DNA from: Taibaiella helva
GTDB lineage: Bacteria; Bacteroidota; Bacteroidia; Chitinophagales; Chitinophagaceae
Direction: 5' to 3'
Assembly: GCF_003545695.1 (NCBI RefSeq)
Contig: NZ_QUZZ01000001.1
Location: 124,001 to 188,000 of the forward strand
Length of the DNA stretch: 64,000 bases
The notes below the pieces were generated by a model. That model ran no database searches and was not told where the DNA came from. It saw nothing but the letters and a program-made list of their open reading frames with translations. This document shows positions 15,971 to 16,639 of the stretch, piece by piece (position 1 is the stretch's first letter; every line of letters begins with the position of its first letter). The position numbers and the translations under genes were made by a program.

Positions 15971-16001
15971 ACAACCGGCCAGAGAGTAATAATAAGAAAT
16001 T

Positions 16002-16041
16002 GATAAAGCCTGCAGGAAGATATGCTTCCGCAGGCTTTATC
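16002..16041 (+). terminator. Terminator hairpin after gltX
   Basis: GATAAAGCCTGC (16002-16013) and GGAAG pair with CTTCC and GCAGGCTTTATC (16025-16041), leaving a single bulged A and a 5-base loop. The 17-bp stem lies 31 bases after the gltX stop. A U tract is missing, but the stem is strong. Confidence 0.7.
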
Positions 16042-16044
16042 TTG

Positions 16045-16540
16045 ACCATGCCGGTCGGGACGCATAGCGGCCTGAACGGCATGGCTTTGGATCCTGGGAT
16101 TACAGGGTGTACGGAAAGAGGCTATGAGGACTTAATCATTACAAAAGGACAAGATAACGCAGTCCGGCCTGCACTGCTTATACTCAGCCTTTCCCGATCT
16201 TATAGGACAGGATGGCAGATGATCCTATAGCTATCTGTGCTATAGGCTCCGTAGGAGCCGAATGTTTGTAGCGACAATATGAACAAACAATAAATTGCTC
16301 CGTAGGAGCAAAACCAGTTGTGAGAAGAATATGCATCCAGCCGCCGTTCAGGCCGTTGCACGTCCCGACCGTCCTGGCCATGCAGATGCGGGACAAGCTC
16401 ATCCATAAGTACCGAAGCGTTCCATCCGCTGTGTCTGAACCGATGCCCCGGATTTTCATCAGGACATACCAATATTGTATCCCCCAACTTTTCCGTTTGA
16501 TCCGCTTTGCGTAGAGATAGGCTTTGCTCCTACGGAATAA
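16045..16540. repeat. Non-coding island of inverted repeats and GTAGGAGC palindromes
   Basis: The 669 bases between gltX and the next gene hold no convincing coding sequence but much repeat structure. A 29-base block at about 16052-16080 recurs in inverted orientation near 16345-16372 with a few mismatches. Two perfect palindromes share the core GCTCCGTAGGAGC: GGCTCC-GTA-GGAGCC at 16245-16259 and TTGCTCC-GTA-GGAGCAA at 16295-16311. Between them TGTTTGT (16263-16269) and ACAAACA (16283-16289) form a third hairpin. A half copy, TTGCTCCTACGGAA, lies at about 16525. The layout suggests an interspersed repeat (REP- or MITE-like) copied elsewhere in the genome, possibly with an RNA product. A minus-strand open frame across it (16184-16621) looks like a by-product. 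Confidence 0.6.
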
Positions 16541-16639
16541 GATAGCATGCGCGACGAACGGCCTGTTTGGTAACAGGCAAAAAAGAAGGCCGCTTAGAGA
16601 GAAGCAGCCCTGTATAAACAAAAGAAGAAGAAGACGTAA

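Follow-up and report, generated by a model that had tools for sequence, protein, structure and literature searches.

Short hairpins that carry a tetranucleotide tag have been described in several bacterial groups. A 2013 survey names GTAG repeats in Proteobacteria, Cyanobacteria, Chloroflexi and the PVC group, and CGTC repeats in Bacteroidetes among others (PMC3733652). In REPtrons, such hairpins accompany a Y1/HUH transposase gene (PMC6006769, PMC8266576, PMC2817692), and IS200/IS605 elements end on the right in a tetranucleotide that lies beyond a hairpin (Quentin et al. 2018). Within the same classification, subclass 1.2 comprises Bacteroidetes proteins of about 150 residues with the motifs DH[IV]H, WQ and Y---Q--HH, whose description there is of low copy number and an absence of IS properties. 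The classification table gives REP "no" for this subclass, and the section on the search for REPs names classes 2 and 3 (Quentin et al. 2018). Here we compare these systems with a repeat island downstream of gltX in Taibaiella helva. With a probability of roughly 0.68, we read its hairpin pair as a REP-like substrate of a subclass-1.2 TnpA, which in this genome is copied mainly inside a MITE.

The window, by which we mean the whole 64-kb stretch analysed (C11:124001-188000 of the organism's own genome, G000), contains a gap of 669 bases (15971-16639) between a gltX-like ORF and a 394-aa ORF on the opposite strand. ORFs inside this gap reach at most 145 aa, overlap the MITE copy and were taken as spurious. 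Right after the gltX-like ORF, positions 16002-16041 hold a perfect 12-bp inverted repeat, GATAAAGCCTGC/GCAGGCTTTATC, which looks like its transcription terminator. The initial annotation had sized the gap correctly and had noticed two near-identical palindromes, a half copy further on and a 29-base block repeated in inverted orientation, all of which proved to be present. Its suggestion of an interspersed, REP- or MITE-like element was right on both counts: the island consists of three nested or overlapping things, namely a hairpin pair of REP-like character tied to a Y1 transposase, a MITE around that pair, and the 29-base block, which is a repeat separate from the palindromes. The features are as follows.

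16050-16080, minus strand: second, inverted copy of the 31-nt block (the earlier 29-base block), outside the MITE, 4 mismatches of 31
16089-16503, plus strand: MITE copy of about 415 bp, from blastn copies, ends and identity limits
16089-16093, plus strand: left end of the MITE, decayed to GGATC, from the alignment of copies
16245-16311, plus strand: A-TAG-B hairpin pair, the unit associated with subclass-1.2 TnpA, from sequence and covariance model
16245-16259, plus strand: hairpin A, GGCTCC[GTA]GGAGCC, from sequence
16268-16271, plus strand: GTAG, starting exactly 14 nt past the loop of hairpin A, from sequence
16295-16311, plus strand: hairpin B, TTGCTCC[GTA]GGAGCAA, from sequence
16343-16373, plus strand: copy of the 31-nt block within the MITE, 1 mismatch of 31
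16494-16503, plus strand: right inverted-repeat end of the MITE, CGTTTGATCC, one mismatch
16520-16538, minus strand: decayed half hairpin past the MITE end, 94% complementary over 16520-16536, 2 mismatches in the 13-mer

Both palindromes contain an exact copy of the 13-mer GCTCCGTAGGAGC (16246-16258 and 16297-16309). Within the window alone, this 13-mer is not above chance (3 occurrences at up to 2 mismatches vs 1.45 expected); genome-wide (4.82 Mb, 34 contigs) it occurs exactly 60 times, with many copies paired about 50 bp apart, and the reversed-pattern control not once. These copies exclude the case of a palindrome with no further copies and no conservation. The initial annotation had also mentioned GTAGGAGC repeats in other Bacteroidota, and the exact 13-mer indeed occurs in 68 of 395 genomes. 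As read from the sequence, the half copy has no TAG at the 14-nt position, and the inverted block extends to 38 nt (16043-16080 and 16343-16380, 82% complementary, 262 nt apart). The TGTTTGT/ACAAACA hairpin between the palindromes is present and pairs in the minimum-free-energy RNA fold of 16225-16330 (z -4.45), but it looks local rather than general to the units, because the spacers in units of other species are mostly A-rich. RNA structure as a function found no support: Rfam gave no match in the window at gathering thresholds, by which a known structured RNA was set aside, and the constraints suggest that a protein works on the hairpins in DNA.

The unit in the window comprises hairpin A, an 8-nt linker, GTAG, a 23-nt spacer and hairpin B, with the loop of A ending at 16253. 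The 64 kb contain no other A-TAG unit, whether B follows or not; ten shuffles of the window gave a mean of 0.8 A-TAG and no A-TAG-B. A covariance model (R1), built on 18 units from other genomes and no sequence from this one, detects it at 16245-16310 (60.3 bits, E 1.5e-13), with no other match in the window under E 0.5. The loci fetched from this genome contain 37 distinct A-TAG units, 26 of them with B. The genome also has a tandem array (C28:241919-242378) of about 11 units with a period of about 50 bp. This array resembles a CRISPR at first sight, a candidate that was rejected on its near-identical spacers.

The genome encodes a 153-aa Y1 protein (PF01797, E 1e-29), labelled IS200/IS605 transposase by NCBIfam, whose relatives of solved structure include the ISHp608 transposase and 2xm3, which we take to be ISDra2. 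Its motifs (DHLH, WQ, YIHQQKEHH), its length and its Bacteroidetes origin agree with subclass 1.2, a motif-based placement in which DHLH has L where the consensus has I or V. Class 2 is marked by Y..NP; the protein has YIHQQKEHH and scores 39.3 bits with NF047646, vs a cut-off of 80. Both histidines, the catalytic tyrosine, Y115 in this protein, and the glutamine that follows are invariant in 16 homologues. A single homologue at E<=1e-10 was counted in this genome, up to 9 in single sampled genomes, and at this threshold 192 of 395 Bacteroidia genomes have homologues, weak ones included. Upstream of the gene, GCTCC-GTA-GGAGC...TTTGTAG hairpins lie within about 235 bp, together with related CCCC/GGGG ones; the 400 bp downstream contain no hairpin with a stem of at least 6.

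The flanks of 146 tnpA loci were read, in sets of 70 and of 76 further named loci. The second set, which consists of the 80 best among at least 583 loci less 4 duplicates, covers Mucilaginibacter, Flavobacterium, Pedobacter, Chitinophagaceae, Hymenobacter and others. Within 300 bp, the first set has 138 perfect hairpins with stems of at least 6, vs 14.0 after shuffling (maximum 23) and 19 mirror repeats; they lie at 48 of the 70 loci. The count is 13 in 31 kb inside the genes and 30 in 47 kb farther off. The second set has 169 in 44.0 kb, vs 15.45 after shuffling and 11 mirror repeats, at 66 of 76 loci; the 219 kb of more distant DNA contain 132. CC..GG closes 114 of the 138 hairpins in the first set, and the stem sequence varies among loci.

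The geometry of these hairpins is rigid. Counted with no preset distance over 1161 hairpin-strands from the 146 loci, [GA]TAG starts exactly 14 nt past the loop end 241 times, whereas every other offset between 5 and 39 has a count of 2-16. Among 148 A-TAG-B units, sought with a TAG-to-B-stem window of 18-33 nt, the loop-to-TAG distance is 14 in 136, for 3- and 4-nt loops alike, and 134 have 27-33 nt between TAG and the B loop. A TAG at +14 follows only 19 of 149 B hairpins, and the pair is therefore polar. Orientation with respect to tnpA shows an incomplete bias, with 85 units toward vs 40 away from the gene upstream and 79 vs 50 downstream.

A-TAG was detectable at 114 of the 146 loci and absent at 32. 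Within 400 bp, 117 A-TAG units lie at the 70 loci (52 of them occupied) and 138 at the 76 loci (62 occupied); among relatives, 14 tnpA loci hold 32 units, present at 10 and absent at 4. The control regions gave 1 A-TAG unit at 26 gltX loci (29 tnpA-bearing genomes were searched, and 26 yielded a locus) and none at 21 class-2 RAYT loci (of 30 fetched). A-TAG-B stands beside tnpA in many other genera, with differing stems and the same geometry, and the "no REP-type repeats" entry for subclass 1.2 is not upheld, since hairpin units flank its genes. Two tnpA loci (L108 in G274, L115 in G250) carry dense GCTCC-TAC/GTA-GGAGC arrays with periods of about 25 and 47 bp, whose units nearly all have no TAG at the 14-nt position and may form a sub-family.

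Across genomes, presence of the unit follows presence of the gene. At E<=0.01, and scored on at most 13 candidates per genome, R1 matches 111 of the 123 genomes whose tnpA homologue is strong (E<=1e-35, our own cut), 33 of 69 with a weak one and 27 of 203 that are tnpA-negative (odds ratio 60), leaving 12 of the 123 strong genomes with no match. Seven named R1 training loci could overlap the genome sample; without the 10 genomes of the sample from which training units had come, 101 of 113 strong genomes match. In 56 control loci (209,605 bases), R1 gave three matches at E<0.01, two in one locus (L252) and one in another (L256), both from genomes rich in the element. Within the 28 genera that hold both kinds (130 genomes), 53 of 58 strong vs 16 of 72 negative genomes match, a Mantel-Haenszel odds ratio of 35 (p 3e-11) that corrects in part for phylogeny. 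At least four GYYCCGTAGGRRC occur in 51 of 123 strong, 11 of 69 weak and 9 of 203 tnpA-negative genomes. The two arms of the stems co-vary: among the GYYCCGTAGGRRC sites listed, they match at 132 of 150, comprising 102 of 108 in strong genomes and 16 of 27 in tnpA-negative ones. Moreover, the sharing of hairpin arms grows with TnpA similarity, from a mean Jaccard of 0.01 to 0.44 (rho 0.38, reached in 0 of 500 permutations, 135 loci). Within the genus, one genome (G396) has tnpA with units adjoining and arrays elsewhere, another (G397) has tnpA too, but its units differ in their stems, and a third (G395) has neither tnpA at E<=1e-20 nor a match to the unit. Several to many hairpins or strong R1 matches were also seen in five genomes where tnpA was not detected (G383, G273, G136, G106, G181); in such genomes the gene may have been lost, may be missing from the draft, or may act from elsewhere.

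The copy in the window sits within a larger element. A blastn search with 16000-16560 returned 61 pieces from the same genome, and alignment of 24 sequences (the window plus copies with matches of at least 250 nt) placed the ends at GGATCAAGCGGAAaa and ttttaCGCTTGATCC. The inverted ends are of the GGATCAAGCGGAAAA type (GGATCAAGCGGAA..CGCTTGATCC), and both are present at 0-1 mismatch in 7 of the 24. Perfect 8-bp target duplications, identified by eye, flank three copies (CTTGTTAT in L048, GTGATGCC in L050 and AATGTTAC in L065, the last with 3 mismatches in its left end); none was seen at the window copy or in the remaining rows of the alignment. Across eight full-length sequences, the window included, pairwise identity ranges from 0.78 to 0.99 inside the element and from 0.33 to 0.36 outside it. 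Most of the element lies at 0.78-0.82, vs 0.91 for the hairpin pair, its best-conserved part, and 0.99 for hairpin B. With identical contexts merged, 45 of 57 distinct 13-mer sites in the genome lie in MITE context and 12 outside, the latter including the tandem array and the region upstream of tnpA. The search for a parent transposon started from 38 TIR-like sites (at most 1 mismatch) and covered four fetched regions, one of them by its ORFs; it turned up no transposase between ends. Downstream of gltX, genome G396 of the same genus has an interval of about 4.8 kb (C17:81000-88000) with no A-TAG unit, in which long ORFs of 572 and 832 aa, measured from stop to stop, take the place of the island. 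No empty site of an A-TAG-B unit came to light.

The 29-base block may belong with a different gene. In G396 it gives isolated short matches, and at one locus of the T. helva genome (L323, C21) its copies stand inverted around a 190-aa Y1 gene (1073-1645) with motifs NHFH and YIHQNP, at 1034-1064 (4 of 31 mismatches) and 1710-1740 (8 of 31). The blastn scores at this single locus are modest (E 0.005 and 0.074 in 6.3 kb), and the block is absent at the other class-2-like gene read (L324). For the genome as a whole, PF01797 gives one Y1 gene at E<=1e-3 and NF047646 gives four matches at that threshold; the two NF047646 matches listed are class-2-like and fall under the family cut-off. By its motifs, the 190-aa protein appears to resemble subclass 2.6, whose genes are described as flanked by atypical structures (Quentin et al. 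2018). As a lead, the block may be the REP of this gene.

These data suggest the following model. The palindromes would be hairpins A and B of one DNA element, in the order A, 14 nt from its loop to [GA]TAG, about 24 nt, B, and this element would be the cognate repeat of an HUH/Y1 single-stranded-DNA transposase, TnpA_Y1 subclass 1.2. Most likely, TnpA binds hairpins A and B as single strands, and the fixed distance from loop to tetranucleotide would position its tyrosine at or near TAG. Hairpin A with TAG would correspond to a right end and TAG with B to a left end with its flanking target, so that A-TAG-B would resemble a right-left junction. Cutting and rejoining at TAG could then copy or move units of about 50 bp and build arrays with that period. 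If TAG is both end and target, each insertion would make a new target, which could, speculatively, give rise to the arrays. In this genome, we infer that one unit was captured by the MITE of about 415 bp with GGATCAAGCG-type ends, and that copying of the MITE by another transposase produced most of the 13-mer copies, the one downstream of gltX included.

Alternatively, the window feature could be a plain MITE moved by an ordinary DDE transposase, with the hairpins as structural parts of the MITE and TnpA 1.2 irrelevant to it. The clear ends, the duplications in three copies, the sharp limits of homology and the 45 sites in MITE context all argue for it, and the MITE is the best explanation for the dispersal of the window copy. 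As a full account of the hairpin pair it is refuted by the 12 sites outside the MITE and by the units of other stems and the same geometry beside tnpA in other genera, and the pair's stronger conservation within the element also speaks against it; overall, we consider this reading unlikely. A reading of the hairpins as host regulatory signals (terminators, attenuators or RNA stability elements), where tnpA lands or persists, draws on their short GC stems and small loops, on their place in a gap between convergent ORFs and on the low energy of the RNA fold. Against this, gltX loci hold 1 A-TAG unit at 26 vs 117 at 70 tnpA loci, units occur upstream as well as downstream of tnpA, stems follow the TnpA protein and presence follows tnpA within genera. 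Together with the Rfam result, this makes a host signal very improbable.

It is also conceivable that TnpA 1.2 has been domesticated, and that the hairpins serve a cellular job such as repair or chromosome organisation rather than movement. The single gene at E<=1e-10 in this genome fits such a role, as do the low copy number and the absence of reported IS properties in the account of Quentin et al. (2018). Against this, other genomes hold up to 9 homologues, presence is patchy within genera, and copy number, arrays and stems vary or turn over between relatives. Multiple copies, patchiness, arrays and stem turnover make the system look selfish, and we regard domestication as rather improbable. 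We retain the hairpin pair as a REP-like substrate of subclass-1.2 TnpA. The broader proposal, held at slightly better than even odds, is that A-TAG-B pairs constitute a phylum-wide and undescribed class of REP-like mobile element serving subclass 1.2, with a 14-nt ruler set by the enzyme, lineage-specific stems, and TAG as both cleavage site and new target.

The pair is a probable substrate for a Y1 group described in 2018 as without IS properties or REPs. The rigid geometry makes a sharp and cheap biochemical test feasible, the many enzyme/stem pairs offer a natural data set on how HUH enzymes read hairpins, and the class would account for many unannotated intergenic palindromes in the phylum. 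Searches of the open-access literature brought up no description of A-TAG-B units.

Among known systems, the MITE is matched by the inverted terminal repeats, the 8-bp duplications in three copies, the high copy number and the sharp ends; unlike a plain MITE, the element in the window carries the hairpin pair of an unrelated transposase system. The CGTC and GTAG REP families of 2013 share short stem-loops with a tetranucleotide tag (PMC3733652). IS200/IS605 elements (TnpA_IS200, subclass 1.1) are linked by their structural relatives and the NCBIfam name, by a hairpin followed by a terminal tetranucleotide as at a right end, and by the likeness of A-TAG-B to a junction of right and left ends. 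In contrast to these elements, the units at tnpA tend to be inverted more often than to form a left and a right end, and they also occur apart from tnpA. The closest parallel is the REPtron, in the features that its published descriptions give (PMC6006769, PMC8266576, PMC2817692): a Y1/HUH gene that has on either side, mostly inverted, short hairpins repeated elsewhere across the genome, with co-varying stems that differ per enzyme and a GTAG-type tetranucleotide in the signal. The canonical REP trait of many dispersed short hairpins is seen here in the 60 exact 13-mers (control 0), and the REPtron traits in the hairpins that flank the Y1 gene and co-evolve with the enzyme (rho 0.38). The enzyme, however, has YI..Q..HH where REPtrons have Y..NP; REPs carry GT[AG]G at the 5' foot, whereas here [GA]TAG lies 3' of the hairpin, 14 nt past the loop; and each unit joins two hairpins with one TAG between them, at a spacing of about 50 bp. 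Overall, the A-TAG-B system works like a REPtron but departs from it in two defining features, the 5' GT[AG]G foot and the class-2 enzyme.
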